Position numbers and translations under genes: made by a program. A stretch of 64,000 nt of DNA from Tricholoma matsutake. Its lineage: Eukaryota; Basidiomycota; Agaricomycetes; Agaricales; Tricholomataceae. Positions 10,286-57,852 of this stretch are shown in pieces. The notes below the pieces were generated by a model. That model searched no databases. It worked only from the letters and a program-made list of their open reading frames with translations, and was not told the origin of the DNA. The first letter of the stretch is position 1. Every line of letters starts with the position of its first letter. Where the stretch lies: positions 7,440,001 to 7,504,000 of the forward strand of contig AP026541.1 of NCBI GenBank assembly GCA_026075535.2, given 5' to 3'.

Positions 10286-10554
10286 TGATAGGTCCACCTT
10301 GTGCTCTAAGCTCTGGGAATGTCTCCAAATGCATCGACACATCACCACACATGCTCCCAACCCCTACAAACCCCTACAAACCCAACGAAACTGCTCCAAG
10401 ACTATTTTGAACAATTTTAAACAACTTTGAACAATTTTGCAACATTTTGAACAACTTTGAACAACTTCGCAGCACCTCAAATGCCTTCAGCCACCATATG
10501 CTTATCGCACCGCCCTTCAGACACATGCAGCACACCTTGTAAGAGTTAGTGCAT
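10286..10554 (+). repeat. N1 3' LTR, left part
   Basis: Starts TGATAGGTCC after the polypurine tract and stops at GTTAGTGCAT, where N2 is inserted. The matching LTR of N2 reads GTTAGTGCGTCAC at this spot, so the original target was GCGT. Confidence 0.95.
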
Positions 10555-11684
10555 TGATAGGTCCACTGTGCACTCTAAACTCTGGGACCATCTCCAGAGG
10601 CATCAAAACATCAAAACGCACGCTCCCAACCCCTACGAACCCCGCGACACCGCTCCGAAACTATTTCGATCAACTTCAAACAACTTTGAACAATATCGCA
10701 GCACTTCAAATGCCTTTGGCCGCTGTACACCAATCGCACCACCCTTTGGATACACACAGCACACCTTGTAAGAGTTAGTGCGTCACATATCGAGCACCAC
10801 TGGACACGAGGAGATACAACGACAGGATTTTAGGATGCAATTGTGGCACTTTGACACCTTGATGATATATTAGATCAATGGGGACAGGTACCAGTAATAA
10901 ATCATGTCTCTAGACGTTTCCCTTCTTATCGTCTTTCATTTATCCTATGATTTGCAAAGATTCTCTATTGTTTTATATCTTGCCTCATGTATTCCTCATG
11001 TTTTATTTCCTTTTTAGTATCACTTCTCCCAAACATATATAGCCTTATACTAGCTACTTAGAAGAACAGAACATATCGTCCTCTCACACCAATTGTCTGA
11101 TTTAAGAGCTATTCTCTTGAGTCCAAGCATCTCGACTTAGTCTCAAAATTCAGTGTTTTACGCCGAATTTCCTCAAACTCCTCGTACTAGCTTCTCAAAA
11201 CTATCGCATATTGTCTATCCTCTCTAGACACCTTTCTATGTCCTCATAGTCTATCCTCAGTCACCGTCAAAGGTGTCTTCGTCTTCTATAAAAACCTTCA
11301 AACTTCTTCAAACTTCATCGCACCTCTTCGAACTTCATCACACCTCTTTGCACCTCATTGCACTTCTTTGAACCTCATTGCACCTCATTGCACCTCTTCA
11401 AATACTCATCGAACTTCATTAAATTTCCCTCAAACGTTATCGCAGCACTTTGTATGCCCTCGATTATTATCGAACTTCTCTCGAACATCATCACAGCACT
11501 TCGAATACTTTCGAGCCTCATTGAACCTCATCGCACCTCATTGCACACCCTTTAGAGTCGTTTTCATACCCCTGGTTTACAGCAGTGATATTTAGTACCA
11601 CCTTGCAACCTTCCTCTAACTAGTGTTATATCATTCGAGCCCTTATTGTGGGTTTTGTTTGGGTTTCCTGGTCAAGTATCATCA
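10555..11684 (+). repeat. N2 5' LTR
   Basis: 1130 bp, TGATAGG...ATCATCA. Contains a run of imperfect decamers of the type CCTCATCGCA (about 11310-11550). Compared with the 3' LTR, most differences seen in the first 100 bp are transitions at CpG sites, such as CA here against TG there from a shared CG. Confidence 0.95.
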
Positions 11685-11687
11685 TTT

Positions 11688-11709
11688 TGGAGCCCACCAC
11701 GAGGGGTTT
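11688..11709 (+). other. N2 primer binding site
   Basis: TGGAGCCCACCACGAGGGG begins three bases after the LTR end. The same site, differing at one A/G, follows the 5' LTR of M, N6 and N7. TGG pairs with a tRNA CCA end; I cannot say which tRNA has the matching acceptor and T-arm. Confidence 0.8.
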
Positions 11710-11851
11710 CTAAATCATTTCATCACCTAATCCATCTCGAATCTCCCGGCTTAGGCCAACACAAGCTAGAAACCTACAGATCGACACTCATCACACCTTC
11801 GAATCTCTTGAACAATCGGGAGATATTCTTATACCTGTTTCCGCAGCAGAA

Positions 11852-14161
11852 TTGACTCATCATCGACTATTCCCTTCACCAATATCATTGCCCTCAACAT
11901 CATCTTCTACTTCTTCGTCTTCGTCATCTACATCTTCATTCATCCTTCCAACAACTTTGACTCCTCTACCATCATTCACACAAGTTTTAACTCCTACTCC
12001 TAGAAACATCGCATTCATGACTACGCAAGCAACGATGCCATCTCGTGGTCATTCCACGGCTCTGAAATTCGACCCTACCCAGCTGCAAGAACTTCGCAGA
12101 TACTTTAACGAACTCGAATTGCTTTTCTTGGCATGCAATGTCACGAACTCGGAGGATATGAAGAAGCATGCTTGTTGCTACCTCAATATCGACACTTCCG
12201 AACTCTGGGAATCAATTCCAGAATACGACGCCGGCATTTCGTTCCAGAACTTTCACATCACAATTCACCAACTGTACCCCGGTTCTGAAGACAATTGGAA
12301 ATGGTCGATTTCGGACATGGACAAACTTGTCAGCGAACAACTTCGCATAGGTATTTACAACGCGAGCAATTTGGGATTATACTACTGGTCATTCTATAAC
12401 ATTACAAAGTTTCTATCTACTAAAGGCAGGATTTCCGACGCGGAACAAAGCAGAGCCTTTGTCAGGGGTTTCCAACCAGGCTTATGGGCTAGAATCGCTT
12501 GACAACTTGAACTAAAATTCCCTGATCACTACCCCGATGACCCCTACCCACTTGACGATATTCACGCAGCAGCAAAATTTGTTTTAGTGGGATCTATTGG
12601 CTCAGATTTGACATCACTACTTAGTTCGCATTCTTCAGCACCTTCGGCAATCCCAACAACATCGACATCTTCGCCCCAAATTAAATCAGAAGACCTTATG
12701 GCAATCCTCGAGAAATTTGCAGCCACTCTTGTAACAGCTTTAGCAGGTTCGAAGACCATGAACACTACTTGACCTAACAGCGGATTTCATTCGGAACAGC
12801 TCGAAACATTAGTTTGCATCTTTTGTGGGCTTACAGGACATTTTATTAGCGACTGCTTAGTTTGCCAGTCTTATATCAATGAAGGAAAGTGTAAGAGGAA
12901 CACAGAAGGCAAAATTGTTCTCCCAAATGGTCAATTCACTCCATGAAGCATCCCCGGTCATTTTATCAAGGACAGGATTGACAAATGGACTCGACGAAAC
13001 CCTCCATCTAACCTTACCCCTTTGCTAATGTATAATATCGCACCTTCAACAGTTTCTTTGACACCATCCAAGGGTGTTTACCAAATTAACGACTTATCCA
13101 CAATGGCCAAAGATCGTATCGCACAACTCGAACAAGAGATATATGCTTTGCGAAGTGGTAAACCTTTTACGAGAACTGATTCGAATGTGCCAGCGGCTCC
13201 TACCTCATGGCCCTCGATCCCTGCAATGGTTGAACGATTTGTCCCACAACCACTGGCACCATCGATATCGTCCACAGCAACCAACCCACCTACTTCAAAT
13301 ATGGCACCATCTTCGATCTCTGAGCGATCATCGCAACTGGTAATACATCCCTACAATGGCGCTAAAGAAAACTCATACCTACCTCCTCACGAATGTAACT
13401 TTGCATCGATAGGCAAAGCAAAAGACGGGCCATCATACCATACCCAAGCTCCCATTCAAAAGGACAAAATCACCAAAGATGTCTTCACTCGATTGATGAA
13501 AACACCGATTATCACTCTAACCCCCGAAGAATTACTTTCGCTATTGCCCGAAGTTCATGCAAAATGGAAAGAACAGGTCACTGCGCATCGTACCCAACAA
13601 CCTGAAGGAAATAATGCTACAAATCTCCTTCACGATGACCTATTCATAATTGACGACCCTTATGAAACCTATATTAGCAGTCTTTGCCCTGGAGAAATAC
13701 CCAAACCTTTTATTGCAGCGAAGGAATCGCATTCTATTAGATCGGTTATTATGAACATCAACGGAAGAAATCCAGTCGAAAGCATAGTCGACCTGGGTTC
13801 ATCAATCATCATGATGTCGGAAGAAGTCTGTCATGAACTCGGTCTCGCATATGATCCTTCAATACACATCCCTCTGCAATCGGCTAACAGTGGTATTGAC
13901 CAGAGTCTAGGTTTGGCACGAAACGTACCTTGCGAAGTTGGTAGCATCACTCTCTATATGCAGATACACATCATCTGTGATCCAGCATACGACATTCTGC
14001 TTGGACGACTGTTCGACGTTCTCACAGAGAGTACAGTCAAGAATTGTCGAAACGAAGCACAGACAATATTCAATCCAAACTTGACATGATCCTGCGCTAT
14101 TCTGACTATTCCCCGATCTAATCGATGAAGAAGAGTAGTTCGCGAGGATTTTCGCAACTAG
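11852..14161 (+). pseudogene. N2 gag-protease
   Basis: One frame carries a Ser/Thr-rich N-terminus, a capsid-like helical region (KFDPTQLQELRRYFNEL, LYPGSEDNWKWSISDMD), a zinc knuckle CIFCGLTGHFISDC (CX2CX4HX4C, about 12812), a coiled coil, and a retropepsin-like block VDLGSSIIMM (about 13788) followed by AYDILLGR. The protease site is D-L-G-S here, D-P-G-S in element M, instead of the usual D-S/T-G. Zero-frame stop TAG at 14159. Premature TGA codons lie at 12500, 12771 and 12944. The start is uncertain: the frame is open upstream without a clear ATG. Confidence 0.85.
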
Positions 14162-17100
14162 AGGATAAAATCTTGGAGAATAACCAGTGTGCCCTCATTA
14201 TTTCATTCGACCATTCTAATTCCTCTATAACTATCGAGTACACTGTGATTATTCCCAATATTGACTCCTTGAACTCTTCAAACCCTATTTCCTTTTCTTT
14301 GATCCTTGTGAACTTATATTTAACGGCTAGTCACCAGTATGCAACGTCTTTATTGGGCCCGATGGCCACCTCTATGCACAACTTCGCTCTCATGTCCCCT
14401 CCCCACGTCTCGTCAACCAACTCTATATACCCAACCTTTGCAGCATCGAAGAAGAAATACAAACCAGTTGCACAGAAGGTTTGGCTGGTTATTACTGAAC
14501 TACCCAATCGATTTCGCATCATTCAAACAATCACTGGCGACCCCCTCGAGCAAATGCCAAAACTCAATCCTCACCCCCCATCGTTTGTCCCTTCTCCCCG
14601 ATATACACTCAAATGCAAAGCTATCATTGACAAAAACCATTCCGGCAATTTTCTATGGCCAGAAGAACGAAAGCTTATGCACGATTTTATTTGAAATCAC
14701 GAAACGGGTTTTGCATGGACCGAACAAGAACGAGGAAGCTTCTGCCCCAACTTCTTTCCTCCTATAGAATTCCCTGTTATTCCTCACACTCCATGGGTCA
14801 AACATAATATCCCTATACCTCCTGGTCTGTACGAGCAGATCTGCAGGATGCTAAAAAAGAAGATAGAAGCAGGAGTATATGAGTTGTCGAACTCATCGTA
14901 TCGGTCGCGATGATTTTGCATTGCAAAGAAAGATGTGAAAATCACTTCGAATCATTCACAGTCTTGAGCCTCTTAATTGAGTAATGATACAGCACTCTGG
15001 CATTGTCCCAATTCCAGAGCATCTAGCCAAACAATTTGGTGGACGCGCTTGCGGTGGAATGTTGGACTTATATGTCGCATTCAATGAAAGGAAAGTCGCA
15101 GAATCATCTCGAGATCTAACAACATTTCAGACGCCTTTTGGAGCGCTTTGAATCGTCACTCTACCGATGGGTTGGACGAACTCGGTCCCAATCTTACACG
15201 ACAACGTAACATTTATCCTACAACCCGAAATCCCTCATATCACCATCCCTTACATCGATGACACACCAGTTAAGGGTCCAAAATCAGAGTATCGAACTAT
15301 TGGAGGATCTTACAAGACGATCGCTGATAATCCAGGCATTTGACGCTTCGTTTGGGAGTGTTTCGGGAATCTAAATTGTATAGTCCAACGCATGAAGAAC
15401 CTTTTCGGGTCCGAAACTTTACCTTTGCATTTCCAAAATAATTGTTCTAGGTCATCAATGCAATATTGAAGGTCATATGGCCGATCTCACTTGCATCACA
15501 GCAGTTAGCAAGTGGGGGCCTTGTCGAAGTCTTACCGAAGTCAAGGCATTTCTAGGAACCATTGGAGTTTGTTGTATCTTTATTCAGAACTTTGCTCAAC
15601 ATGCTACAGCTCTAATGCACCTTATGCGAAAAGATGTCCCTTTCAATTTTGGACTGAAACAAATTGCAGCACAGGAAGACCTGAAGCAAGCATTGGTCAA
15701 TTCCCCAGCAATTCGCGCTATCGACTATTCATCCGACGCCCCAGTTATCCTATCCGTCGATACCTCATACATCACTATTGGCTTCTTCCTCGTGCAATGC
15801 GATCCCGACAACCTTCGAAAGCGATATTACAGTCGATTCGGATCGATCACGCTTAACGACCGCAAATCCCAGTTTTTGCAAGCGAAACTCAAACTCTACG
15901 GTCTATATTGCGCTCTTGGAGCACTTCAATTGTACCTAATAGGGGTCTGGAACCTCATTGTCGAAGTCAACGCAAGGTATATCAAAGGCATGCTCTCAAA
16001 CCCTGATATCGCACCTAGTGCTAGCATAAATCGATGGATTGTCTCGATCATTACTTTTCATTTCATGTTGGTTCATGTCGCAGGTACACATCATGGTCCA
16101 GACGGACTTTTGAGATGTCCTCCACAAGATGAAGATGATCAGTGCGATAACGAAAACGATTTTGGAGACTGGATCAACCGTCTTCATGGTTTTGTACACC
16201 AAATCAATCCCATTACGACTCGACCTTTCACTTCCTATCAAGTTTTGACACTCTCCCTCTCTTCAGATCTCAGTAAGGGGGAGGATCCAACCTATGATGA
16301 TGTCCCATGAATGAACAATGCGAAAAGGGAAGACGAAGAATTAATTCGTGTTTGAAAATGGTTAGAGGATTTGGTATGACCTCCAGATTTATCAGATTCC
16401 AAATATGCTACCTTCATTTGATATTGCACCAATTTCTTCTTAGATTGCAGCAAACTTTGGAGGAAAGACTCGCACGGAGCTCACAAAATCATTCCAATTT
16501 CCGAACGTCATCTCGAAGTCATTTGTGCAGCTCATGACAATATTGGACACAAAATGGTCTTTGTGATGAAAGCCGTTATTTCCCTACGATTTTGGTGGCC
16601 TAACATGAAAGCAGACATCACATGGTATATTCACACTTGCCACCTATGCCAGGTACGACAAACTCGAAATCTCCTTATTCCACCTACCGTCGCCACACCC
16701 GCACCTTTATTTGGCAAAGTCTACATCAATACCATGCAAATGCCTCCCTTGAGCGGATTCAAGTATATCGTACAAGGCCGATGTTCACTAATGACTTATC
16801 CCAAGTGGCAAAACCTTTGACAAGAAAATGCGATGACCCTCGGGGACTGGATCTTCGAAGATATCATTTGTAGATGGGGTTTGCTATATAAAATTGTGAG
16901 CGATAACGGATCAGCATTCATTGCAGCATTGGAGTACCTTTCGAAACAATATCATATTAACCACATTTGAATTAGTGGCTACAACTCTCGTGTGAATGGA
17001 ATCGTCGAACGAGCTCATTTCGATATTCGACAATCGTTATTCAAAGCAGTCGATGGAGATCAGAGCAAATGGTTGGCTGGAGCACACTCAGTGTTCTGGG

Positions 17101-17699
17101 CAGAACGAGTTATGGTTCATAGACGCATGGGTTGCTCTCCTTACTTTGCAATTACAGGATCACACCCCCTAATCCCGCTCGACATTTCCGAAGCAACATA
17201 CTTGCAACCCCCGCCCAATTCTATCTTATCGACAACCAATCTCATCGCTCGAAGAGCAATCGCCCTACAGAAACGCTCAGCCAACCTCGAAATTCTCTAT
17301 TCGAAAGTCTATACTGCTCGACTTGAAGCCGCAAAACATTTTGAAGTCGTTCACAAATGAACGATGCACGACTACAACTTCGAAAAAGGCGACCTAGTCC
17401 TACTTTGCAACACACAAATCGAGAAATCCCTCAATTGCAAGATGCGACCTCGATATTTAGGCCCGCTGATCGTCATCAATCAAAACTATGGAGGAGCTTA
17501 CATCATCTGTGAACTCGATGGATCAGTATTTCATCAACCAGTCACAGCCTTCCGACTCCTTCCCTATTTTGCACAAAAAGCAATTCCCCTACTGCCGAAC
17601 TTCCTCGATATCGGCTCTGAAAGACTCGAAAAACTTCGAAACACGTCGAACATTGACAAAGATATTCCCGAAGACCTTCCGGACTTTGAAGATGAATAA
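14125..17699 (+). pseudogene. N2 reverse transcriptase, RNase H, integrase
   Basis: Continues pol in the -1 frame relative to gag-protease. Visible blocks: KKKYKPVAQKV (about 14450), PWVKHNIPIPPG (about 14795), RT palm CGGMLDLYVAFNER, the catalytic loop YIDDTPVKG (about 15250), RNase H, the linker with the internal polypurine tract, the integrase zinc finger ending CHLC, core SDNGSAF and NGIVE (34 residues between the last D and E), and a GPY/F-like block YLGPLIVI. Ends at 17699. Stops and one frame change around 15000-15480 show it is dead. No chromodomain. Confidence 0.88.
16271..16286 (+). other. Internal polypurine tract inside N2 pol
   Basis: CAGTAAGGGGGAGGAT, identical to the tract at 19390-19404 before the 3' LTR. 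Kept in N1 and N6 at the same pol position. Confidence 0.75.
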
Positions 17700-17953
17700 T
17701 TATCCCCTTTCTTTGTTTGTGATTGCTTTCCTATGACCTCGATTTCTTTTAGTGTACAATACAAGTCACGATATCGCACTATAGCATGGTCGTGCAAACT
17801 CCAAAAGGGTTTTTTGGCCATGATGATTTACTGAGCCTTTCCCTTATTCCTTTTTTTTCTTTTCTTCTTTCTTTTCCTTCTTACTTTTCTTATCGTTCCT
17901 TTTGAGACTCACAAAAAATCTAAGCTATAAAACAGAAAGAACGACATAATCTA

Positions 17954-19254
17954 CTACTCTTCCAACATCTCTTCCACCACTTCTATTTGCCTGCACAAAA
18001 CTTCCATCTCGACCTTCAACTCCGCCAACCTCGTCGCCAGATATCGATGACGAGTCATGATCTCCTCATTGACATCCTCACCCTCTTCGAAACTATGCGA
18101 TGCTTTTGCTTTGGCCTTTCCCTTTCCCTTCAACAACCTCTTTTTCTCCTTCAATGGTTTCGAAGGGCCTGCGACCGGTTTGATGTCAGTGATGGGACCC
18201 ACGACATGAATTCAAGGTACTTTCGATCCGAACATAGGTTAGCATACACTATGAGATTATATCGAATGAATTTCGTACCTGGTTTTGGGTGCGAATCCGG
18301 TTTCGCAACCCCAAATCATCTCGCTTCACCTTTGCGAAGTCCCCGCCTCGAGACCCCTTGCCAGTAGCAACCCTGCACTGCCTGAGTGCACTTCGTGCAC
18401 TTTGGGGCTCCCTCCTTGACAATGCATGACAGCTGGGATATCATTCTAGCACATTGATCGCACTACAACATTGATTAGCAGCCTGAAAACCCTTTGAAAA
18501 CAAAGCGAAAACTCACCGGGCCTTCGAAGTTGAGGAGTCCGCCCTCAGCGAACCTCCTCTGCTTGCTCTCTACCCCTTCCTCGATGATCTCGTCTTCATC
18601 ATCCTCGCCTCCCTCGATCTCCACTACCTTACACTTCCCAATCCTGATTATCGGCAATCCTCCCAAATATTCTTCCTCATCCTCCTCTCCAGCCTCTAGC
18701 CTCTCAATCGCTTGCACCTCCATTGTGAGCTCTGCATTTCATCGCTGCAGTTCTTCCTTTGACAAAGTTTTAGCATGAAACTCAGCAAGGGCTGCGTTTC
18801 GAGCGTCTACTAACACCCCCCTCCAAGCCTCAATCTTCACCTTCTTCGCATCTTCCTCTGCCCTGCGAGCCTCCTCCTCCTCCTCCCAAACCCATCTCGC
18901 TTCCTCTTCCCTTCGCTCTCACTCTACCTGCTCACTCAGATCTGCAAATAAAAAGTCTCCCACCCACAAAAGCCATTTGCGTCGAGCCATTGGTTTGAAA
19001 AGCTCGAAAACCTCATCGACGACCTGTTGCACAGTCGAGTCGCATTCCTCACCCAAATCATCCGCCAATTCATCGTATTCCACCTGAACATATCACGTTA
19101 GAATCTGAATATTGAATGGGAATCGGAAACTTACCATCTTCTCACAAAAACCTTTCCCCCACACTTTGAAGTCGAGGTCTTCAGCAACACCACGATTGGA
19201 CATCGATTTGGCGTATTCGAGGATTTCGGTGTTGAGTTCAGTGAGAAGAGACAT
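17954..19254 (-). pseudogene. N2 antisense accessory gene with Zn2Cys6-like cluster
   Basis: Best-preserved plus-element copy. Start at 19254 (MSLLTELNTEILEYAKSM). Exon 1 ends near 19136; exon 2 holds VEYDELADDLGEE, a charged helix and an acidic region; an intron near 18516-18464 precedes the cysteine exon. The cluster is CDQCARMISQLSC then IVKEGAPKCTKC and TQAVQGC: CX2CX8CX8CX2CX6C. The final exon carries AGPSKPLKEKKRLLKGKGK and a coiled coil ending EVVEEMLEE at 17954. The spacing resembles fungal Zn2Cys6 transcription factors but with eight instead of six residues in the first loop. Some TGA stops, for example in the helix region. Role unknown. Confidence 0.8.
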
Positions 19255-19366
19255 GATGAAAAATAGTGTTGAAGGTTTGGAGAGGTGACAAAGAAGAACA
19301 AGAGGTTTTTCGAGTTTTGTTTACAATTTCAACACGATCATGCATTTTGCATGTGACTCCGATCGG

Positions 19367-19403
19367 CTGACTGGGACAGTCAGGATTTCAGTAAGGGGGA
19401 GGA
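19367..19403 (+). other. N2 hairpin plus polypurine tract
   Basis: CTGACTGGGACAGTCAG makes a perfect 6-bp stem with loop GGGAC, then AGTAAGGGGGAGGA runs into the 3' LTR start at 19404. Confidence 0.88.
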
Positions 19404-20513
19404 TGATAGGTCCACTGTGTGCTCTAAACTCTGGGACCGTCTCCAGAGGCATCAAAACATCAAAATGCACGCTCCCAACCCCTACAAACCCCACGACACC
19501 ACTCCGAAACTATTTCGATCAACTTTGAACGACTTCAAACAATATCGCAGCACTTCAAATGCCTTCGGCTGCTGTACACCAATCACACTGCCCTTTGGAT
19601 ATATGCAGCACACCTTGTAAGAGTTAGTGCGTCGCATATCGAGCACCACTGGACACGAGGAGATACAACGACAGGATTTTAGGACACAATTGTGGCACTT
19701 TGACACCTTGATGATATATTAGATCAATGGGGACAGGTACCAGTGATAAATCATGTCTCTAGATGTTTCCCTTCTTATCATCTTTCATTTATCCTATGAT
19801 TTGCAAAGATTCTCTATTGTTTTATATCTTGCCTCATGTATTCCTCATGTTTTATTTCCTTTTTAGTATCACTTCTCCCAAACATATATAGCCTTATACT
19901 AGCTACTTAGAAGAACAGAACACATCGTCCTCTCACACCAATTGTCTGATTTAAGAGCTATTCTCTTGAGTCCAAGCATCTCGACTTAGTCTCAAAATTC
20001 AGTGTTTTACGCCGAATTTCCTCAAACTCCTCGTACTAGCTTCTCAAAACTATCACATATTGTCTATCCTCTCTAGACACCTTTCTATGTCCTCATAGTC
20101 TATCCTCAGTCACCGTCAAAGGTGTCTTCGTCTTCTATAAAAACCTTCAAACTTCTTCAAACTTCATCGCACCTCTTTGCACCTCATCGCACTTCTTCGA
20201 ACCTCATCACACCTCATCGCACCTCTTCGAATACTTGTTGAACTTCATTAAATTTCCCTCAAACGTTATCGCAGCACTTTGTATGCCCTCGATTATTATC
20301 GAACTTCTCTCAAACATCATCGCAGCACTTCAAATACTTTCGAGCCTCATCGCACCTCATCGCACCTCATCGCACACCCTTTAGAGTCGTTTTCATACCC
20401 CTGGTTTACAGCAGTGATATTTAGTACCACCTTGCAACCTTCCTCTAACTAGCATTATACCATTTGAGCCCTTATTGTGGGTTTTGTTTGGGTTTCCTGG
20501 TCGAGTATCATCA
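19404..20513 (+). repeat. N2 3' LTR
   Basis: 1110 bp partner of 10555-11684, ending GAGTATCATCA. Followed by GTGT, the right target duplication, and then by the rest of the N1 LTR. Confidence 0.95.
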
Positions 20514-21258
20514 GTGTCACATATCAAGCACCACTGGACATGAGGAGACACAACGATGGGATTTTAGGATGCAATTGTGGTGCTTTGATGTCTTGATGAT
20601 ATATTGGATCAATAGGACAGGTACCCGTAATAAATCATGACTCTATATGTTTCCCTTCTCATCATCTTTCATTTATTTTATGATTTGCAAAGTTCTTTAT
20701 TGTTTTATATCTTGCCTCATGTATTCCTCATGTTTTATTTCCTTTTAAGTACCATCTCTTCCAAACATATATAGCATTGTACTAGCTACTTAGAATGACA
20801 GAATAGATCGCCCTCTCACACCAATTGTCTGATTTAAGAGCAATTCTCTTGAGTCCAAGCCTCTCAACTTAGTCTTGAAGTTCAGTGTTTTATGCCAAAC
20901 ATCTTCAAACTTCTCATACTAGCTTTTTGAAACCATTGTCTATTGTCTATCTCCTCTCAAAGCCTTTCTACATCCTTATAGTCTATCCTCAGCCTTTGTT
21001 GAAATTGTCCTTGTCCTCTATAAGCCCTTAGAACTTCTTCAAACATCTTCAAACATCTTCAAACCTCTTCAAACTTTCCTCGAACATCATCGCAGCACTT
21101 CGTACACTCTCAAACCTCATTGAACATTATTGGACCCTCTCTAAAGTTGTTTCCCTAACCTTGGGTAACAGCGGTGATATTTAATACCTCTAACTAGCAT
21201 TATACCATTTGAGGCCTTATTGTGGGTTTTGTTTGGGTTTCCTGGTCAAGAATCATCA
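20514..21258 (+). repeat. N1 3' LTR, right part
   Basis: Resumes the N1 LTR at GTGTCACATATCAAGC and ends AATCATCA. It is more diverged from the N2 LTRs than these are from each other, as expected for the older host copy. Confidence 0.92.
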
Positions 21259-43750: not shown

Positions 43751-44227
43751 TAGTACTGGAAAAGGAAAAAAGGCCATGAGGCAAACATGAGGCAGACATA
43801 AGGCAGTAAATATAGGGTCTAAATCACAAAGTAAATGAGAAATGATGGAAAAGAAAACATGCAAAGTCATAATATATCAAAGGTAGTTGTCCTATTGTTC
43901 CAATAAATCAAAGAAATGTCAGAAAACATTGCAATGTGTCCTAAAAAGTGAAATGTCTTGTCTCCTTGTGTCTGGTGTGCTCATTGTGCGATGTGGCAAT
44001 GTGTAGCAAGTGTGGAACGTTTGTCCGAAGGTCTGTGCAACAGGGGTACAGCAGCTGGAGGCACTATAAGTGCTACAAAGTAGTTCAAAGAATTTCAGAG
44101 CATTTCAGAGGCATTTTGCAACTTCATAGAACTTTGCACATGTTTGTAGAAATTTGTAGTGTTGGGGGGGATGTGTTGGATTGTGTGGGAACATTTCCAG
44201 AGCTTGGAAGACGAGGTGGACCTATCA
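43751..44227 (-). repeat. N7 3' LTR, outer half missing
   Basis: Matches 62672-63158 of the 5' LTR from TAGTACTGGAAAAGG onward; about 516 bp are gone at the outer end, where it meets the split coiled-coil gene. Confidence 0.9.
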
Positions 44228-44264
44228 TCCTCCCCCTTACTGAAATCCTGACTGTCCTAGTCAG
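44228..44264 (-). other. N7 hairpin plus polypurine tract
   Basis: Minus strand CTGACTAGGACAGTCAG (perfect 6-bp stem) followed by CAGTAAGGGGGAGGA at the LTR border. Confidence 0.88.
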
Positions 44265-45941: not shown

Positions 45942-45943
45942 TA

Positions 45944-45955
45944 AGATCTAAACTA
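45944..45955 (+). other. F self-priming primer binding site
   Basis: AGATCTAAACTA lies two bases after the 5' LTR and pairs perfectly over 12 nt with LTR bases 45706-45717. Tf1 and related chromoviruses prime reverse transcription from the folded-back 5' end of their own RNA with an 11-nt match. No tRNA-type TGG site is present here. Confidence 0.7.
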
Positions 45956-46136
45956 TCTGCTAGCCCACCTGCCTAGGTGTAGGCAATACGTCTCAACACA
46001 CACCACAACAACCAGGGTCTAGACAAACCCCAGACCGACCACCAAGAGAAGCAGAACCACAGCCAGGTTCATCTTGGTACCAATACAATGGAAGACTAGT
46101 CCGTTACTCGACCCCAGCACAGCGTTGGTTCTACAG

Positions 46137-47142
46137 TGATGATGCTCAACCCGGGAAAACCACCAGAACTGCCAATGAGGCAATTGATGATGTTTGCGAC
46201 GAGTCAGAGGAAGGTTGCGAGACGTTCTGAATGTTTGTGGTCAAACCTATGAGAAGATTACTAGTTAACACTAGTCGTGAAGGTAGTGTTATGAGAGATG
46301 AAGGTGTTTGGCGTGGTCCAATTGAGTATCGATCGATATCGAGGGCGATTATCGTCGATGGTTGATATGTGAATTCTGCGGACCTTTCGATAGGTCGATG
46401 GTATATGAAGGGTGCGGCAAACCGCTATGAAGTGTTGGAAGGGTTGCTAGAACTAATGATGAGAGGATCAAAGGAGGATCGAGGATGTGACAATCACAGA
46501 GGTTTCTCATCGATCAAGAAAACCTGCAGAGACTTAGATTGTTTTAGAAAGTTGATCAGATGCTTAGAACTGTATATGAGATGATATGTGAAGACGATTT
46601 CTTCTCATTTCCAAGTAGATACTACAGAGTTTTATATGTTTTAAAGAAACTTCCTAAAATGGAATGAGAAACATGTGTAGAACATGAGGCAAAAGATATG
46701 AGTTAAGGCACAAGGCCATAAAGGAGACTGGAATCCGAACAAGAAAGATATATATATCATATGATGAAAGAGTAATAAAGGGAAAGAACTAAAAGAGACT
46801 GTCCTTTGTGTATAAACTGTGCTAAGTCTCGCAATAATGCATCCAGCGGGTTCTGTGCGCAATAGGGACTTGGAACGAGGCTGACCTATGATCAGCAGGT
46901 TTGAGCACGAGTTGGAATATGTCCTAGTGCATGGTCTTCCACCATTTAGATAACAAAGGTGGCGCCCAATGTCGCTCGTAGTTTCTCGATATTGATCGAT
47001 GACGCTCGACGATGGTCGACGATGATATCGCAATCGATAGAGTGGGTCATGCTGCATCTGGGACGTCGTAGGAGTTAGCCAACATGATTAGAATGATGCT
47101 AAAGTGGTGAATCGGTCCTTGAGCCAAGGAGACAACCTATCA
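46137..47142 (-). repeat. N6 3' LTR
   Basis: 1006 bp, partner of 55789-56829. The 5' partner has an extra stretch GATGAGATCGATGGCGAACG near 56004 that is missing here. Confidence 0.93.
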
Positions 47143-47179
47143 TCCTCCCCCTTACTGAAATTCTGACCATCCCGGTCAG
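47143..47179 (-). other. N6 hairpin plus polypurine tract, with compensatory change
   Basis: Minus strand CTGACCGGGATGGTCAG: a perfect 6-bp stem in which the T-A pair of N2 and N7 is replaced by C-G, then CAGTAAGGGGGAGGA to the LTR. Confidence 0.88.
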
Positions 47180-47290
47180 TCAAGCCGAAACAACCAGGTC
47201 ATGTGACATTGTTGATCGCTGATTTAAGATGCGTCGTGGTTTGAACTTTTCTCTTTTCATTCGATCTCTTCCATCCATCTCCTCGACAAC

Positions 47291-48665
47291 ATGTCTATCC
47301 TCGCCGAACTCGCTCTTCTCATCCTTGAACACGCAAAATCGATGCCCGAGGCTGGCAAAGCCAAAGAGTTGGACTTCGAAGTGTGGGGTCATGTTTTTTG
47401 TGAGAAAATAGTATGTCCTTCCCTTTTCTTTCACTTATCTGCTTCCTAATCTCGTTTGATAGGCTGAATACGACGACCTGATCAGGTCAATCGACGAGGC
47501 ACACAACGAATGTGTGCAGGCGACGTTAGACGAGGCAGCTGGCCTCTTCGCACCATTCACTCGCGAGGATTGGGTTTTGTGGGGTGGGAAGTATCTTTTT
47601 GTGGAGTATTCAAGGAAGAGAGAGGAAGAGAGGAAGAGAGAGGAGGAGAGGGAGGCTCGGCAGGTGGCCATCAAGGCAAAAGTGAAGAGGATCGAGGAAC
47701 GATGAGACGCACTGGTCGAGGTGCATTGAGCTTTCTTGGCTGAAGTCCCGGCCAAAACCGTTTCAAAGGACGAATTCCACGATCGTACAGCTGTGCTCGA
47801 GCTGATACGCCTCTCGATCAATCAGGATGAGGCCGCAGATGAAGCAGCACCCCTGGTGTCATTGAGCAAGTCATCGAGAAGAGGAAGGCGGACGAGATGG
47901 ACGAGGAGGAAGAAGGTGAGGACGAGTTGGATGAAGAACCTGTGGTCGCAAAGCGGGTGCGATTGGAGGAGGGTGATCTGATCACCTTCCATGGGCTGGT
48001 AAGTAGTCGTTTCCTTTTGATATCATTCATGCTAATCACACTCCCGATATTGCTTTAGTGTGATCATTGTGCTGGGCTGAAAACGGCTCCAGAATGCGAT
48101 GTCAAGGAGGGCACCCCAAAGTGCAAGAAATGCACTCAGGGGCTGCAGGGGTGCTACTGGGAGGGAGTATCGAGGCGAGGACTCTGTCAAGGCAAATCGA
48201 GGAAAACGGCGGGCTCTAAACGAGCTACAAAGGGTACTGAGGAGTCGACAGAGGTGTCAACTCCTAGACATAGTAAGTGATCCTTTTCGATCCATGAGTA
48301 CAATTGCTAATCTGTATGATTCCTTAGCCATACGCATTCGGGCTATCCAGCCCATCCAAAATGTGGAGGCCGGGCCCTCAAAACTCAATGAGCACCCAAA
48401 AAGAATGGTGAAGGTGAAGCCGAAGACGGCTGAGAAGGAGAAGGGGAAGGGAAAGGGGAAAGGGAAAGCATGAGAAGTCGAACCTGAGGTCGTGGGTATG
48501 GTCGAGGAAGCATCGATGGCGGTGGAGGACGAAATGACACAGTCGGATGCAGCAAGACTCCATCATTGATATCTTGCGGAAGTGCTGGTGCGCAAGAAGT
48601 TGGAAGTGGAAGTGTTGATGGAGGAAATAGAGGTGTTGGAGAGGAAGTGGGAGGAATCCCAGTAG
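47291..48665 (+). pseudogene. N6 antisense accessory gene with Zn2Cys6-like cluster
   Basis: Four exons on the strand opposite to N6 gag-pol: 47291-47410, 47463-47998, 48059-48272 and 48328-48665, all with GT-AG introns. Exon 1: MSILAELALLILEHAKSMPE. Exon 2: EYDDLIRSIDE, a strongly charged helix, and the acidic KADEMDEEEEGEDELDEE. Exon 3 opens with the cluster CDHCAGLKTAPEC, DVKEGTPKC, KKC, TQGLQGC followed by YWEGVSRRGL. Exon 4: AGPSKL, a Lys/Gly-rich basic stretch, and a coiled coil ending at 48665. All six cysteines are present. TGA codons at 47704, 47728 and 48472 and one frame shift near 47850 inactivate it. Probably nuclear and DNA-binding if ever expressed; this is inference. Confidence 0.82.
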
Positions 48666-48988
48666 AATTCTGTTTTTATCGTTTTAATTTTATCATTTTT
48701 CGTGTGTCTGAGCGAGATAAGGTTGAAATGAGAAATATCGTGTGCGATTGAAGCCAGGAAATGTAAGATATATGCAAAGAAACATAGGAAAGAGAGAAAA
48801 AAGAAAGTAAGACAGACGATTCATCAAAACGAGACATAGGGGAAAGGCTCAGAACTCCTTCATAGCCGAAAAACCCCGTCGAGCTTGCACGAACACATTT
48901 CAAACGATATCGCGATTTGTAATAGTACACTGTTATAAAATCGAGAGTTTGTTTCAATATTGCAAGTAGAAAAAGAAAAGAAAATGGT

Positions 48989-51900
48989 TTATTCGTCTTC
49001 GTCGAGGTCAGGAATGCCCTTGTCAATGTCTCCATCGACGTCCGATGTTGTTCGAAGTTGTTCAAGCCGACAATCGTCGATATTGAAGAAATTTGGAGGA
49101 AGGGGAATTGATTTCCGTGCTAGATAGGGTAGAATTTGGAAAGCTGCTACTGGTCGATGAAGAACTGATCCATTGAGCTCGCAAAGGATATAAGCGCCAC
49201 CGTAGTTTCATGTGATGACTATGAGTGGGCCCAGATATTGAGCTCGCATTTTTTGATTAAGAGCTTTTTTGATCTGTGTGTTTCGCATGAGTACGAGGTC
49301 ACCTTTTTCGAAATTGTAGTCTCGAATTGTTTGCTTGTGAACTTCTTCAAAGCGTTTCGCAGCTTCTTGTTGAGCAGTGTAGACTCTAGAGTAGAGTACT
49401 TCGAGATCAGTCAACCATTTCTGTAGTGCAATAGCGCATCGGGTGATGAGATCGGTGGAGGAGAGTATCAAATTGGGTGGTGGTTGTAGATATGTCGCTT
49501 CTGATATGTCAAGAGGGATGAGTGGATGAGAACCTGTGATCGCAAAATAGGGTGAACAGCCCATTCGTTTTCGAACTGTTACCCGTTCTGCCCAAAAGAC
49601 CGAGTAGGTCCCAACTGACCATCGAGTTTGATCACCATCGACAGCCTTGTAGAGTGATTGTTGTACATCGAAGTGGGCTCATTCGACGAGGCCATTGGCA
49701 TGAGAATTGTACCCACTTATCTGAATATGATTGATATGATATTGCTTCGACAAATACTCAAGAGCAGAAAGGAATGCTGCACCGTTGTCAGTAATGATCT
49801 CATAAAGTGAGCCCCAACGACAAATGATTTCTTCGAAGATCCAATCGCCGATGGTCTTCGCTGTTTCATTGCAAAGCATCCTGAACTCCAGCCAGTATGA
49901 TATCGAACATCGACCTTGTACTATATAGCGATATCCGCCAGAAGGCGGCATGTGCATTGTGTCAATGTAGACTTTTCTGAATAGAGGAGCAGGTGTGGAG
50001 ACGATTGGTGGAATAAGAAGATTTCGAGTTTGTCGCAACTGACAGTAGTGGCACGTTCTGATGTACCATGCAATATTGGCTTTTAGGTTGGGCCACCAGA
50101 ATCGTAGTGCGATGTGAGACTTCGTGGCGAAGATCGTTTTGTGGTCGATATGGTCGTGCAATGACCGGATAATATCGATGCGATGCTCTGGAATCGCGAT
50201 GATCTTGTGTTCGCTGTGATGATCTTTTCGCCATAGTTTGCCGGAATCTATGAAGAACTCGGTGCAATATTGCACGAAGGTAGCGTACTCTGTGTCTGAT
50301 AGATGTGGGGGTCGCACCATATCATCTAACCATTGATGAACGAGCAGTAATCGTTTGTCTTCTTTCTTTGATTTGTCTGATCTAGGTATGTCTTCATACA
50401 AAATGTCCTCCCCCTTACTGAAATCCGAAGCTTGGGTGAAAGTGGGATAAGTCGTGTGAGAGGGGAAAGGTCGAATCGAGATTGGGTTGATTTGGTGAAC
50501 AAAACCGTGTAGTTTGTCAATCCAGTCGCTGAATTCTTCTTCTACTTCGACATCGTCATCTTCAGTTTGTTGAGGACGTTGCGAAAGGCCATCTGGCCCA
50601 TGGTGCATACCTGCGACATGAACTAGCATGAAGTGGAACGTTAGAATGGAAACTATCCATTGGTTTATGCTAGCGCTAGGCGCGATATTGGGATTTGAGA
50701 GCATGCCTTTGATATACCTTGCATCGACCTCGACGATAAGGTTTTGTACCCCTATCAAGTATAAATGAAGGGCCCCAAGGGCTCAATATAGACCATAAAG
50801 TTCGAGTTTCGGTTGCGAAGACCGGGATTCGTGGTCGTTGAGCATGATCAAGCCGAATCGACTGTAGTATCGCTTTCGAGGGTTATCGTGGTCGCATTGC
50901 ATTAGGAAATAGCCGATGGCGATGCTCAATGTGTTGACTGCGAGGATTACTGGGGCGTTCGAGGTATAGTCGATGGCTCAAATCGCTGGCAAGTTTAGGA
51001 GCGCATGCTTGAGATCTTCTTGTGCTGCTACCTGAGATGGGCCAAATTCGAAGGGCACATCTTTTTGAGTAAGATTGATTAGAGGAGCTGCTCGATGTGC
51101 GAAACTCTGGATGAAAATTTGACAAACTCCAATCGTTCCTAAGAACGCCTTAACTTCTGTGAGCATACGACATGGACCCCATTTCTGGATCTTATCGATA
51201 TGCGTTGGGTCAGCCATTCGGCCTTGAATATTGCATCGATGACCTAAAACAATTATCTCAGGGACACAAGCAAATAATTTTGGTCCAGAGAATGTCCCAC
51301 CACAATACTTCATGCGCTGGACGATGTGATTTAGGTTCTCGAAATGTTCCCACATGAATTGTCGAATGCCTGAGTTGTTGACGATTGTTTCATAAGACCC
51401 ACCAATTGTTCAATATTCCGATTTCAAACCCTTCACTGGTGTGTCGTCGATATAAGCAATCATGATGTGAGGGACCTCAGGTTGTAGGATGAAAGTTATG
51501 TCGTCGTGTAGGATCAGAACCGAGTTCGTCCAACCCATTGGTAGGGTGACGATTCAAAGTGCGCCGAATGGGGTCTGGAAAGTCATTAGATCTCGAGAGG
51601 ATTCAGATACAAGCCTTTCATTGAATGCAACATATAAATCCAACATTCCACCACAAGTGCGTCCTCCAAACTGTTCGGCTAAATGCTCGGGGATCGGGAC
51701 AACGCCTGAGTGCTGAATCGTAACCTGGTTTAATGGCTCGAGGCTGTGGACTATTCGTAGCGATTTTGCATCTTTCTTCGCAATGCAAAACCATCATGAT
51801 CGGTATGACGAGTTCGACGACTCATAGACTCCTGCTTTGATCTTCTTTTTCAGCATCTCGCAAATCTGTTCATACAAACCGGGCGGTATGGGGATATTGC

Positions 51901-52655
51901 GTTCGACCCAAGGGGTATGAGGGACGACTGGGAACTCGATAGGGGGGAAGAAATCGGGTCAAAACCTTCCTCATTCGTTTTTGGTCCATGTGAACCCTGC
52001 TTGCTGGTTTCGAATGAAGTCATGCATGAGGTCTTGTTCTTGAGGCCATAAGAAATCGCCTGGATGATTTCGATCGATGATGTTTTTGTGTTCGAGGTTA
52101 TATCGAGGAGTTGGTTTGAATATCGGAGGATGGGGATTTAGTGGAGGCATGTCTTGGAGGGGATCACCCTCGATGCATCAAATAATTCTAAAATGATCAG
52201 GTAGTCTGGCCACGATTGGACGGACTTTCTGTGCGACTGGTTTATACTTTTTCTTCGTCGATAAATAACTAGACTGTGGATTGTCGGAAATAACTGAGGA
52301 AGGGGAAACATACAATGAAGAAGTTCGCATAGGTATAAACACCATCGAGGCATTTCGAGGAACGTGGAACTTGTCGCATGCAGATAAATATAAGTTGGAA
52401 AGCATCGCAGATAGTTCTTCGGAGGAGTCGATTTCGGGGATATTTGCAGTGCGCTCGATAAATATAGAGGAGTCAGAAGAGTTGAACAAGATAATGAAAG
52501 CGCACTGTTCCGAAATTTCATTCTCTAATGCTGAAAATCCTCTCGAACTGCTTTTCGATGACGGTGCGATCGAGGTATCGAGGGAATAGTAGCGGTCCGA
52601 GTTGAGTTCGGATCGCATATCGTGATGGTTTGTGCTTCGTTCCGATAGTTTCTAA
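48989..52655 (-). pseudogene. N6 reverse transcriptase, RNase H, integrase
   Basis: Best-preserved pol in the window: one frame with few stops. From KSSSRGFSALENEI and KKKYKPVAQKVRPIV through RT (GGMLDLYVAFNER, AYIDDTPVKG), RNase H (DARYIKGMLSNPN), the linker with the internal polypurine tract, the integrase finger HDHIDH...CHYC, D in VYIDTMHMP, ITDNGAAF and NGLVE with 34 residues between D and E, then FEKGDLVLMRNTQ and YLGPLIVI, ending at 48989. It is in the -1 frame relative to gag-protease and overlaps it by about 130 nt. Stops include TGA in place of CGA. Confidence 0.9.
50405..50420 (-). other. Internal polypurine tract inside N6 pol
   Basis: Minus strand TTTCAGTAAGGGGGAGGA, matching the 3' tract at 47143-47160, including the GGATTTC that precedes it. 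Confidence 0.78.
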
Positions 52656-55020
52656 TGACGCTTTCTGTTAAGACGTCGAAAGGTCATCCGAGTAAAATAT
52701 CATAAGCTGGGTCCCGAATAATATGTATCTGCATGTATAGGGTGATTCCACCGAGATTGCAGGGCACATTGCGTGCTAAACTGAGTGTTTCGTCCACAGT
52801 CCCGTTGGCAGACTGCATCAGAAGCCTAATCGAGGAGTCGTATGCTAGACTGAGTTCGTGGCAAACATCTTTGGCCATCGATATGATCAAGGAACTGGGA
52901 TCGACGACACTTTCTACCTGGTTGTTACCATGGACATCCATGATAACTGATCTAATCGATGAAGTTTCTTTAGCAATGATGAAAGGCTGAGGGATTTCAC
53001 CGGGTCGGAGACTGCTAATATAGGTCTCATATGGGTCAGGCACGATGATCGCGTTGGGACTAAACAGGTTCGTCGCATTGTTTCCGGATTGTGGGACTCA
53101 TTTCAGTGTGACCTGTTCTCTCCATCTTGTTCAAACCTCGGGTGAAAGCGAGAGTAATTCTTCAGATGTCAGCGTGATGATCAGCATCTTCATCGAGCGC
53201 GCAAATATATCGTGTGCGATTTTCTCATTCTGTACCAGTGCCTGTGTTGCATACGATGGTCCGTCTTTTTCCTTACCCTTTGATGCACCAGTGAAGTTCC
53301 TTTTGTGTGGTGGCAGATAGGTGTTCTCCCTGACCGACGTGTATGGGTGTACCGAGGTTTGCATTGGGGGTATGGTGGTCGATGGCAAAGTGGTCGATGC
53401 GGGAGACATCAATGTCGATGTTGGAGCAGTAGTTGAAGTCGAAGGGTTGACCATTGTCGATGAAGATGTCGAGGGTGGTGGGACTGGAGCAGTAGACATT
53501 GACGATGCAGGGACGGGGGTTGTCGTGGTTGGAACCGAATTTCGAACCTCTTTGTTCGGACGTGAAAATGGTCGACCACTTCGAAGCACAAATATTTCGC
53601 GTTCGAGAGCCACTATTCTATCTTCGGAGTCAGCTGTCAACATTGAGTTATGATAAATGCCTTTCGTCTCCAATCCCGATGTAGAAACGGCATCGGATTC
53701 CATTATCGAAGTGATCGCAGCCGAGGTTGAACTAGTCGAAGTCGAAGGTGCCAATGGTGCGATGCTGAATAAAAGTGTGGCTGCTGGGGTTGTGTCTGGG
53801 TTGCATTTCCACCATTCATCGATCCGTTCCTTGATAAACCTGCTGGGGATACTTCGAGGGGTGAATTGTCCATTTGGAAGTATGATCTTTCCTTCCGCGT
53901 TTTGCTTACACTTCCCTTTGTTCAAGTACGACTGACAAACCATACAATCAGGAATAAAATGTCCCGATAAACCGCAAAATATGCAAAGGAGTGCGTCGAT
54001 GTGTGCCTGTCTGTCTGCCAAATTAGTCCGAGGATTTTTAGTACCTGCGATATGTGTAGCGATGGTGCTAGCAAATCGTTTGAACATTGCGTTTAGATCT
54101 TTGGTTTTAATCGTAATAGTTCCAGGTGATGAGGTGACTGTATTTCCAACGTTCGATGTCGAGTGCGATGAGGAAGTTGATTGGTGGATTACTGAGTTTG
54201 ATCTGTTGGAGCCTGCTAGTACAAATTTTGCCGCATCGTGAATGTTGTTGAGTGGATATGGATCGTTGGGATAATGGTCGGGGAACTTGAGTTTGAGTCG
54301 TCGAGCAATTCGAGTCCATAAGCTGGGTTGGAATCCTCAAACATAAGCTCTGCTTTGCTCGGCTTCCAAGATCCTATTCTTTGCTCACAAAAAGTGAGTA
54401 ATGTTGTAGAATGCACAATAATACATTCCTAGATCGCTCGTGTTGAATATCCCAACACGTAGCTGTTCTCCCACTAATTTGTCCATGTCCAATATGCTCC
54501 ACTTGCGATTGTCTTCTGAGCCGGGATAGAGTTTGTGTACTGCTGTTCTAAATTTGTTGAATGATGTGCCGGGTTGATACTCTGGAAGCGGTTCCCAGAG
54601 TTCTGAAGAGTTGATGTCGAGGTAGCGACAAGCGTGTTTCTTCATTAGATTCAATTCAGTAACGCTGCAGGTCAGGAATAACAGTTCAAGCTCTTCGAAG
54701 TATTGTCAAAGCTCTCGAGGCTGAGTCGGGTCGAATTTTGGAACGGTCGAGTGCCCATGAGCTGGCATTGTGGTTTGGGTAGTCATGAATGTGATGACTC
54801 TAGGGGTAGGGGTTAAGACTTGTGTAATAGATGGTAGAGGTGTCGAAGTTGTTGGAAGGATAAATGAAGAGGTCGATGATGATGATGAAGAAGTAGATGA
54901 CAATGTGGAAGGCAATGATATAGGTGAAGGAAATAGTCTACGATGAGTAGATTCTGCTTCAGAAACTGGAATTAGAATGTCCCCCGATGGTTTGAGAGAT
55001 TTGAAGGCATGGCGAGTATC
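52525..55020 (-). pseudogene. N6 gag-protease
   Basis: Ser-rich N-terminus, capsid-like region (LYPGSEDNRKWSILDMD), zinc knuckle CIFCGLSGHFIPDC (about 53983), a Ser/Thr/Pro-rich stretch (about 53330-53500), ARSMKMLIITLTSEELLSLSP, and the protease block VVDPSSLIISM, in which the usual Gly after the catalytic dipeptide is Ser. Zero-frame stop at 52525-52527. Some TGA and TAA stops. The frame is open upstream to the solo F LTR and, across it, towards the primer site; the start codon is not identified. Confidence 0.85.
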
Positions 55021-55685
55021 TGTTACAATTTTCCTTGTAACTCATGGAACCCAACCGACCCAACCGACCCGACAATCCCCTGCAGACAGGAGGCACTACC
55101 TGATTCATGCCTAGGGCATGTCCTTGACACCAGACACATGCATGATGCATGCCGACTGCATGCATTCGATCCCCTTCCCATGGAAGGCACCCTTGACGCA
55201 TGGTGACTCCATGCACCCAAACCCATTCCCACACATGCTGTGATATGACAGCCCCTTGACATGAGGTCCATGATGTCGGACTCTCACGATCGACATGCTG
55301 CGCCACAGCACTCCGTGACATTGGACGCCTCATGCAAGGCATGAGGCTTATTGTTTCTATTCATACCTGATACACATCTACCTTTCTGATTGGACGATAA
55401 GGACCTTCCTACTAGTATAAATCCTGTGACTTGTAGTAGGGATGTCCTTAGTTTAGATCTAGGCAATCTACAGCTTTAACTTGTGAACTTGTGAACTTAC
55501 TCAAAACCACTAAGGAAGCCCCTTAGTGCGTGAACCTGAACAACTCTACACAGAAGGCCTGCTAGAGTGCACTATCTCTCTTATGTCGGACGCTCCGAGT
55601 AAGACTAGTGCCAAACGACTTGTCGAGGAAGCACCTCGCCAAACAACATTGACTAGATCGAGTGGTTGAGGCTTTGCCCTTAACA
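55021..55685 (+). repeat. Solo F-type LTR in the N6 leader
   Basis: 665 bp, TGTTACAATTTTCC...CCTTAACA, flanked by perfect 5-bp repeats GTATC (55016-55020 and 55686-55690). It is the innermost insertion in the right-hand nest, so F-family elements were still active after N6 landed in F. Confidence 0.95.
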
Positions 55686-55762
55686 GTATCAATACGAAGG
55701 GTTCTCACTTGTGTTGGCCTAAGCCGAGGAAGTCGAGGTTGGTCCGATGATGAAATGATTCA

Positions 55763-55784
55763 GAAACCCTCGTGGTGGGCTCCA
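55763..55784 (-). other. N6 primer binding site
   Basis: Minus strand TGGAGCCCACCACGAGGG, four bases inside the 5' LTR border, as in N2. Confidence 0.82.
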
Positions 55785-55788
55785 AAAA

Positions 55789-56829
55789 TGATGACGCTCA
55801 ACCCAGGAAAACCACCAGAACTGCCAATGAGGCAATTGATGATGTTTGCGATGAGTCAGAGGAAGGTTGCGAGACATTCCGAATGTTCGTGGTCAAACCT
55901 ATGAGAAGATTACTAGTTAACACTAGTCGTGAAGGTAGTGTTATGAGAGACGAAGGCATTTGGCGCGGTCCGATCGAGTATCAATCGATATCGAGGGCGA
56001 TTGATGAGATCGATGGCGAACGAGTTTATTGTCGATGGTCGATATGTGAATTCTGTGGACCTTTCGATAGGTCGATGGTATATGAAGGGTGTGGCAAACC
56101 GCTATGAAGTGTTGGAAGGGTTGCTAGAACTAATGACGAGAGGATCGAGGGAGGATCGAGGATGCGACGATCGCAGAGGTTTCTTGTCGATCAAGAAAAC
56201 CTGCAGAGACTTAGAATGTTTTAGAAAGTTGATCAGATGCTTAGAACTGTATACGAGACGATATGTGAAGACGATTTCTTCTCATTTCCAAGTAGATACT
56301 ACAGAGTTTTATATGTTTTAAAGAAACTTCCTAAAATGGAATGAGAAACATGTGTAGAACATGAGGCAAAAGATATGAGTTAAGGCACAAGGCCATAAAG
56401 GAGACTGGAATCCGAACAAGAAAGATATATATATCATATGATGAAAGAGTAATAAAGGGAAAGAACTAAAAGAGACTGTCCTTTGTGTATAAACTGTGCT
56501 AAGTCTCGCAATAATGTGTCCAGTGGGTTCTGTGTGCAATAGGGACTTGGAACGAGGCTGACCTATGATCAGCAGGTTTGAGCACGAGTTGGAATATGTC
56601 CTAGTGCATGGTCTTCCACCATTTAGATAACAAAGGCGGCGCCCAATGTCGCTCGTAGTTTCTCGATATCGATCGATGACGCTCGACGATGGTCGATGAC
56701 AGTCAACGATGATATTGTGATCGATAGAGTGGGTCGCGCTGCGTCTGGGATGTCGTAGGAGTTAGCCGACATGATTAGAATGATGCTAAAGTGGTGAATC
56801 AGTCCTTGAGCCGAGGAGATGACCTATCA
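55789..56829 (-). repeat. N6 5' LTR
   Basis: 1041 bp, minus orientation, followed by the right target duplication ACGG at 56830-56833. Confidence 0.93.
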
Positions 56830-57852
56830 ACGGATCAACCGACCAACAAAGAGGAGATTTCCTCACCGACAAAGACTTTGAACAACCACACACACCCCCA
56901 CCCGAAACATCCACCCGCTTCCTAACAGACAAAACCGACAACCTCTATAGCGAGATGTCCAAACCCGCTGCAACCACACTGATGACGTCCGTGAAGGACA
57001 TTCGAATCCGATCACCCACAGACTTCTCAGGAGAGCGGACCAAGACTGCCAAGTTCCTGCAGGAGATAGACCTGTACTTGTGAATCAACGACCAGGTCTA
57101 TGACACAAACGACAAAAAGATCATCTTCACACTGTCCTTCATGAATGGAGGGAAAGCAGCTGCCTGGGTGCAGGCATTTGTCAACCAACACCAATCCGAG
57201 GGACTCAGAGAATACGCAGACTTCAGACAGAAGGTCCTAGAGGCCTTCTCACCAATTGATGACGCCAGAACGGCAAAGACAGAGATTAAGAATCTCAAAC
57301 AAGGTTCAGGGAACCTCGAAGAATATGTGGCGAACTTCTGCATCCTGAAAGACAGGACGGGAATCACTGAAGATGCAGCCATGATTGAGTACTTCATGGA
57401 TGGACTGCACCCCAAATTACTGAAGAGGGTACACACAATGGAGACAGTACACAACACTCTCGAAGGCTGGATAAAGGCAGCTTCGAAATATGAAGGCCAA
57501 TGGCAATGGGCCATGGCAATCCTGGGAAAGACCAGGCAGAACCAACAGACAAAAGAAACGATGAAGAAAGGACAGCCCTCTCTTGACATCAACCAACTGA
57601 CAAACCAAGAACATGTGGAACACCTCCAAAAGGGATTGTGTTTCATCTGTCACCAACCAGGACACCGATTGTCTGACCACAAGGATGGGAAGAGCCCCAT
57701 CCAGACGGGATCAGCACCCCCTCCTTACCGAAATCGCTTCACCCAGAAAAAGACTGGGGTGGATGCCTACCAGAAGATCCGCATGATGCTGGATGAACTA
57801 GACGAAGAAGAGAAAGAATGAGCCCTCAACCTCATGGAGGAATTGGGTTTTT
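56830..57852 (+). pseudogene. F gag
   Basis: Typical retrotransposon gag: LTDKDFEQPHTPPP, FSGERTKTAKFLQEIDLYL, TLSFMNGGKAAAWVQAF, then a zinc knuckle CFICHQPGHRLSDH whose last Cys is replaced by His. Its N-terminal part lies at about 45960-46136, left of N6. A TGA at 57081 and another at 57819 both fit CGA decay; without the second the frame continues to TAG at 57850. Confidence 0.85.

Follow-up and report, generated by a model that had tools for sequence, protein, structure and literature searches.

Phygy elements, Ty3/gypsy non-chromovirus LTR retrotransposons of Physcomitrella patens, are stated to prefer NCGN for insertion (PMC6317226), and Ginger1 elements, whose transposase is related to Gypsy integrases, duplicate CCGG in 75% and CCGT or ACGG in 24% of the cases given in the cited part of their description (PMC2836005). 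For PFV, the cited part of the structural report gives a target consensus of V-YR-B and an unstacked central YR step in the target complex (PMC4422553). Here we describe the N family, LTR elements of the fungus Tricholoma matsutake, and compare its targets with those of these systems.

N-family insertions in the window

The window, by which we mean the whole stretch of DNA analysed, comprises 64,000 nucleotides (C4:7440001-7504000) and contains the following N-family features, given in window positions.

10286..21258, plus strand: 3' LTR of N1, an older element, split by N2; 3' flank 21259-21262, CTGG
10551..10554, plus strand: 5' target duplication of N2, GCAT
10555..20513, plus strand: N2 element, LTRs 10555-11684 and 19404-20513, 94% alike
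10770..10799, plus strand: stretch of the N2 LTR with the insertion-free N2 target GTGCGTC; second copy at 19619
16422..16817, plus strand: zinc-binding (H2C2) piece of the N2 integrase, E 7.7e-16
20514..20517, plus strand: 3' target duplication of N2, GTGT
23010..24478, plus strand: N3 solo LTR, flanks CCAT (23006-23009) and CTGT (24479-24482)
34990..36367, minus strand: N4 solo LTR, plus-strand flanks ACGT (34986-34989) and ATGT (36368-36371)
36785..38131, minus strand: N5 solo LTR, plus-strand flanks ACAC (36781-36784) and ATGC (38132-38135)
43751..63158, minus strand: N7, its span taken from an LTR pair 93% alike (43751-44227, 62672-63158)
46137..56829, minus strand: N6 element, LTRs 46137-47142 and 55789-56829, 92% alike; plus-strand flanks ACAG (46133-46136) and ACGG (56830-56833)
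49682..50782, minus strand: RNase H-to-integrase piece of N6 with H2C2, nearest solved structure by sequence PFV integrase

The end signature TGATAGG...ATCATCA is common to the solo LTRs N3, N4 and N5 and the full elements N2 and N6. As in Ty3/gypsy elements, N2 and N6 carry LTR pairs starting with TG and ending with CA, a primer-binding site and a polypurine tract, and the pol region of N2 runs in the order protease (12947-14086), RNase H (15396-16307) and H2C2 integrase (16422-16817); RNase H, H2C2 and rve likewise follow in this order in a relative, P0004. The sequence TTTTGGAGCCC follows the 5' LTR of N2, and a polypurine tract precedes the 3' LTR wherever coding DNA adjoins upstream. The solved structures nearest to the integrase are PFV, then Ty3, both by sequence and by a Foldseek comparison of a fold model, in which the listed chains cover residues 251-543 well. 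Related elements occur in other Agaricomycetes (Heterobasidion, Armillaria, Ganoderma). The search for relatives in viral contigs gave five pattern matches, none of them confirmed.

Read in the orientation of the element, the 5' and 3' flanks are GCAT/GTGT for N2, CCAT/CTGT for N3, ACAT/ACGT for N4, GCAT/GTGT for N5 and CCGT/CTGT for N6. A preliminary description of this DNA had listed these five pairs and claimed that their members differ only by C/T or G/A at the two middle bases; positions and letters all agree on re-reading, and the outer bases are identical in five of five pairs. Two additional ends in the window fit the same pattern, namely the 3' flank of N1 (CTGG) and the minus-strand 5' flank of N7 (ATGC), whose 5' LTR starts at 63158, the LTR start at 44227 being preceded by a polypurine tract. 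Removal of N3 to N6 had been said to restore the reading frames of the host elements, and the joined flanks are indeed open even with the two middle bases masked (SDXGPQF, QXLSIL, GPLXRY, WFXXST). The view that the LTRs show the empty N2 site directly held in part: GTGCGTC stands at the corresponding position in each of the N2 LTRs, but both are copies related to the LTR that N2 entered and not an empty allele.

Elsewhere in the window, a tandem array lies inside the N5 LTR (37644-37999, spacings of 32 and 59 bases), and AT skew peaks at 56001-60000, with values of 0.20 and 0.34 in two 2-kb steps. Rfam at gathering scores had no match within the window.

A CpG-centred target across the genome

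The genome (161,040,721 bases, 13 contigs) was searched with a pattern for the N-family LTR 5' end that left the four flanking bases free and required the fifth not to be G, which removed polypurine flanks. At least 1835 LTR 5' ends were found, compared with 2 for a reversed-pattern control; since the family is large, this count and those of 1800, 575 and 7 below are lower bounds. The middle two bases of the 4-bp flank were YR in 1800 of the 1835 ends, comprising 575 CG, 7 TA and 1218 CA or TG. The other 35 flanks, a minority of which were inspected, count against a CpG rule. Among the matches listed, the centre was CG, CA or TG in 98 of 100 5' ends, in 87 of 91 3' ends (a further 9 of the 100 listed were set aside as reading TTTTT, a shift at the primer site) and in 97 of 100 ends of a single LTR subfamily. 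In 20 random regions, by comparison, CG, CA and TG made up 2.3%, 8.3% and 8.5% of dinucleotides, together 19%, and TA 4.8%. Elsewhere in these flanks, CG made up 0-9% per offset (averaging 1-2%) and the three dinucleotides together mostly 5-38% (mean about 19%), in a profile of 37 5' flanks that included 7 loci picked for TA. The proposed CpG-centred target rule is thus borne out by a large excess of central CG over background across at least 1835 LTR ends, and the observation is confirmed genome-wide as well as in the window.

The F family, an LTR family present in the same DNA, served as the control.

45279-45941, 55021-55685 and 59899-60657: F-family LTRs
55021..55685, plus strand: F-family solo LTR with 5-bp duplication GTATC

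Its LTR of about 665 bp (TGTTACAA...TAACA) has 894 5' ends genome-wide under one pattern. CG, CA and TG together amount to 8-29% at each of seven offsets in 59 5' flanks, the usable ones among 100 listed (the other 41 were polypurine-type), and no motif is evident in the 5-bp F duplications, which the preliminary description had listed as lacking CG. Family G had also been considered as a control.

30589-43520, minus strand: family G, rare, LTR pair 90% alike

The flanks of this element mismatch each other, so that it is possibly recombinant. Family G shares TTTGGAGCCCACC after its 5' LTR with the N family, and four of its five genomic 5' ends have a CG, CA or TG centre; it was therefore dropped as a control and is treated as a sibling of the N family.

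The N-family duplication is 4 bp long: among 31 non-primer flanks at solo-LTR distance, 28 agree with the opposite side in their outer bases, including L112, whose two middle bases are GC. Symmetrised frequencies of the outer bases are A 0.40, C 0.29, G 0.20 and T 0.12 (370 positions), so that the target is weakly V-CG-B, with T avoided at the first position and A at the last. Outside the 4 bp, no strong motif was found in 82 half-sites. Read in element orientation, the five window pairs all end in T; the rule of T at position 4 that this suggested was ruled out by counts of T 38, G 35, C 15 and A 10 in 98 flanks.

Probable CG origin of the CA and TG flanks

If CG is duplicated on insertion and each copy then decays alone, the state of one flank should not depend on that of its partner. 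We examined this in 68 pairs, counted below by the middle bases of the 5' flank (rows) and 3' flank (columns).

5' CG: 3' CG 7, CA 7, TG 9
5' CA: 3' CG 9, CA 7, TG 9
5' TG: 3' CG 4, CA 8, TG 8

Independence is not rejected for these pairs (p 0.81), in line with the C-to-T and G-to-A reconstruction of the preliminary description, the two flanks varying independently among CG, CA and TG. Maximum likelihood puts the proportion of targets that were CG at 1.0 (95% lower bound 0.86), and the estimate stays at 1.0 (lower bound 0.85) in a sensitivity run with nine more full-length or less certain pairs. If changes are C-to-T or G-to-A only, a CG origin is required in 53 of the 68 pairs, and CG is retained in about 32% of cases per flank. 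The pair data leave room for up to 14% CA or TG targets. Five of the seven TA flanks have a recognisable 3' end, and all five have CA opposite, which is consistent with decay from CG through CA to TA and would equally fit a rare CA target. One pair, at C5:5018328, breaks the rule: its 3' flank has TT as the central dinucleotide.

The pairs came from several sources. A genome-wide listing of ends gave 45 candidates, of which nine were dropped (five with a 3' TTTT, the second partner of 4326257, and 6147445, 6349633 and 6446524 with unequal outer bases), as were 5337432 and 5200646 as segmental copies. Twelve short-range pairs from a one-subfamily listing included three already counted and three that were dropped, namely 6535780 and 12758303 for unequal outer bases and 5018328 for its central 3' TT. 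Of 80 regions at solo-LTR distance, 16 had no recognisable 3' end, 32 read the primer site and 32 were other; from these last we dropped L140 (shifted primer site), L123, L124 and L131 (unequal outer bases), L112 (three LTR-end mismatches, middle GC) and the copies L088 and L093. The window insertions N3, N4 and N5 were added. The same subfamily listing held twelve long-range pairs, four with unequal and eight with equal outer bases; these eight, one of them N2, entered the sensitivity run only, together with N6.

Part of contig C1, at about 4.79-5.04 and 5.20-5.39 Mb, appears to be a segmental duplication in which several N insertions recur together with their flanks. What appear to be copies of a single insertion, judged by matching flanks and spacing, read ACGT/ACGT at C1:4795405 and ACAT/ACGT at C1:5200646, and the base change is visible between them.

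Alternative explanations

A retroviral liking for any flexible pyrimidine-purine centre, with CG as one of several accepted steps, would account for the fact that most present flanks are CA or TG and not CG, and it agrees with the central YR favoured by retroviruses with 4-bp duplications in the cited part of the PFV report (PMC4422553). However, TA occurs in 7 of 1835 flanks against 4.8% of dinucleotides in random regions, and targeting of any YR predicts an excess of CA/CA and TG/TG pairs, whereas the pairs lacking CG number 15 same and 17 different (19 and 19 with the added pairs). The TA count and the independence of the pairs rule out general YR targeting, and we regard a preference of this kind as highly improbable. 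Still more remote, to the point of near-certain dismissal, is an artefactual resemblance of unrelated flanks, produced by segmental duplication and CpG decay: some listed sites do look like segmental copies, such as those on C1, but the outer duplication bases and the flanks are diverse, recognised duplicates were taken out before the pair test, and another LTR family in the same genome (F) has no such pattern.

A host protein or chromatin mark might instead recognise CpG or methylated CpG and tether the integrase, or the integrase might read 5mC, so that copies enter methylated repeats; we consider this unlikely, though not negligibly so. Random regions have a CpG observed/expected of 0.45, compared with 0.28 in 1-kb 5' flanks and 0.35 in 3' flanks. 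Two of the 54 distinct flanks have values above 0.7; of the 20 random regions four do (Fisher p 0.04), and these four hold 43% of the 545 CpGs in the random set. Basidiomycete CpG methylation is described as concentrating in TE-rich regions (PMC13297926), and CpG hypermutation of repeats is reported in T. matsutake, its mechanism left open in the part of that paper cited here (PMC6980582). Yet the difference depends on the cut-off (at 0.6, 6 of 54 against 4 of 20, p 0.44; rank test p 0.05), the window is CpG-richer than random regions (0.64 against 0.45), and base-exact centring exceeds what a tether normally gives. A Pfam chromodomain was absent from 20 pieces of N2 and N6, 10 further pieces and 8 relatives, the pieces being broken and the relatives perhaps partial, and the same 8 possibly incomplete relatives showed no methyl-CpG-binding domain. 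The CpG values thus hint weakly that the distribution of present copies departs from that of available CpGs, and the position of these copies in somewhat CpG-poor DNA suggests that something besides CpG supply shapes where they are found. Methylated-repeat targeting would possibly explain these surroundings, as would, equally, purifying selection in genes together with later CpG decay. That the integrase or a fixed partner recognises methylated CpG, turning a host silencing mark into a landing signal, seems to us rather unlikely; if so, each insertion would wear away the site it had used through deamination of 5mC, and methylated repeats would accumulate copies.

A proposed model of CpG-centred integration

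We consider it very probable that the N family, a Ty3/gypsy-type family, owes its flanks to CpG reading by its own integrase complex. In the proposed model, the integrase would insert the two ends of the element on either side of a CpG, with a 4-bp stagger, and so duplicate NCGN, and each duplicated copy would later decay, on its own, to TG or CA. The 4-bp duplication, the CpG centre and the independent decay are given by the sequence itself; CpG reading is the step we infer. It would take place at the centre of the target DNA, where this is sharply bent, with a geometry as in foamy-virus-like intasomes, whose V-YR-B target would here be restricted to a CG centre instead of accepting every YR step. 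Any base contact between integrase and CpG is putative; the fold model is that of a relative and of moderate confidence (mean pLDDT 64, pTM 0.32).

Under this model, copies land on CG, the dinucleotide at which repeats are usually methylated in such fungi, and then mutate away the letters that define their target. Paired duplications in a CpG-decaying genome would provide two-copy CpG clocks for insertions, and two questions become testable: whether an integrase can read CpG, and whether methylation matters.

Comparison with known systems

Retroviral-type integrases usually show weak palindromic preferences, in contrast to the one strict pattern in this large natural data set of 1835 LTR 5' ends, a near-absolute two-base target of an LTR integrase. 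The preliminary description had called a CpG target rule unusual, which needs qualification in view of the precedents in Phygy (NCGN) and Ginger1 (CCGG/CCGT). In a literature search limited to titles and the beginnings of abstracts, we found no fungal LTR element described as targeting CpG.

PFV integrase, the nearest solved structure, resembles the N family in its 4-bp duplication, central YR and avoidance of outer T/A, but has, in the cited part of its report, a weak preference for any YR and not for CG alone (PMC4422553). The errantivirus ZAM of Drosophila is likewise an LTR element with a CG-containing target, bound in vitro by its own integrase; unlike that of the N family, this target is longer (CGCGCg), and the cited part of the report describes that site alone as insufficient for cleavage (PMC2527525). 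Ginger1 shares 4-bp duplications with a central CG, whereas its members are, in the cited description, DNA transposons with terminal inverted repeats (Hydra data) and nearly fixed outer bases; the direct-repeat LTRs at the ends of N elements and their variable outer bases exclude the N family from Ginger1. Phygy elements share with the N family the LTR retrotransposon type and the NCGN preference, and a 4-bp duplication is their commonest in the cited part of a further report (PMC6911290); the host of Phygy, however, is a moss, and the cited part of its report states the preference in one sentence, with no counts (PMC6317226). What is new relative to these precedents is the fungal host, the near-absolute strictness of the target and the CpG-decaying genome in which it is found.
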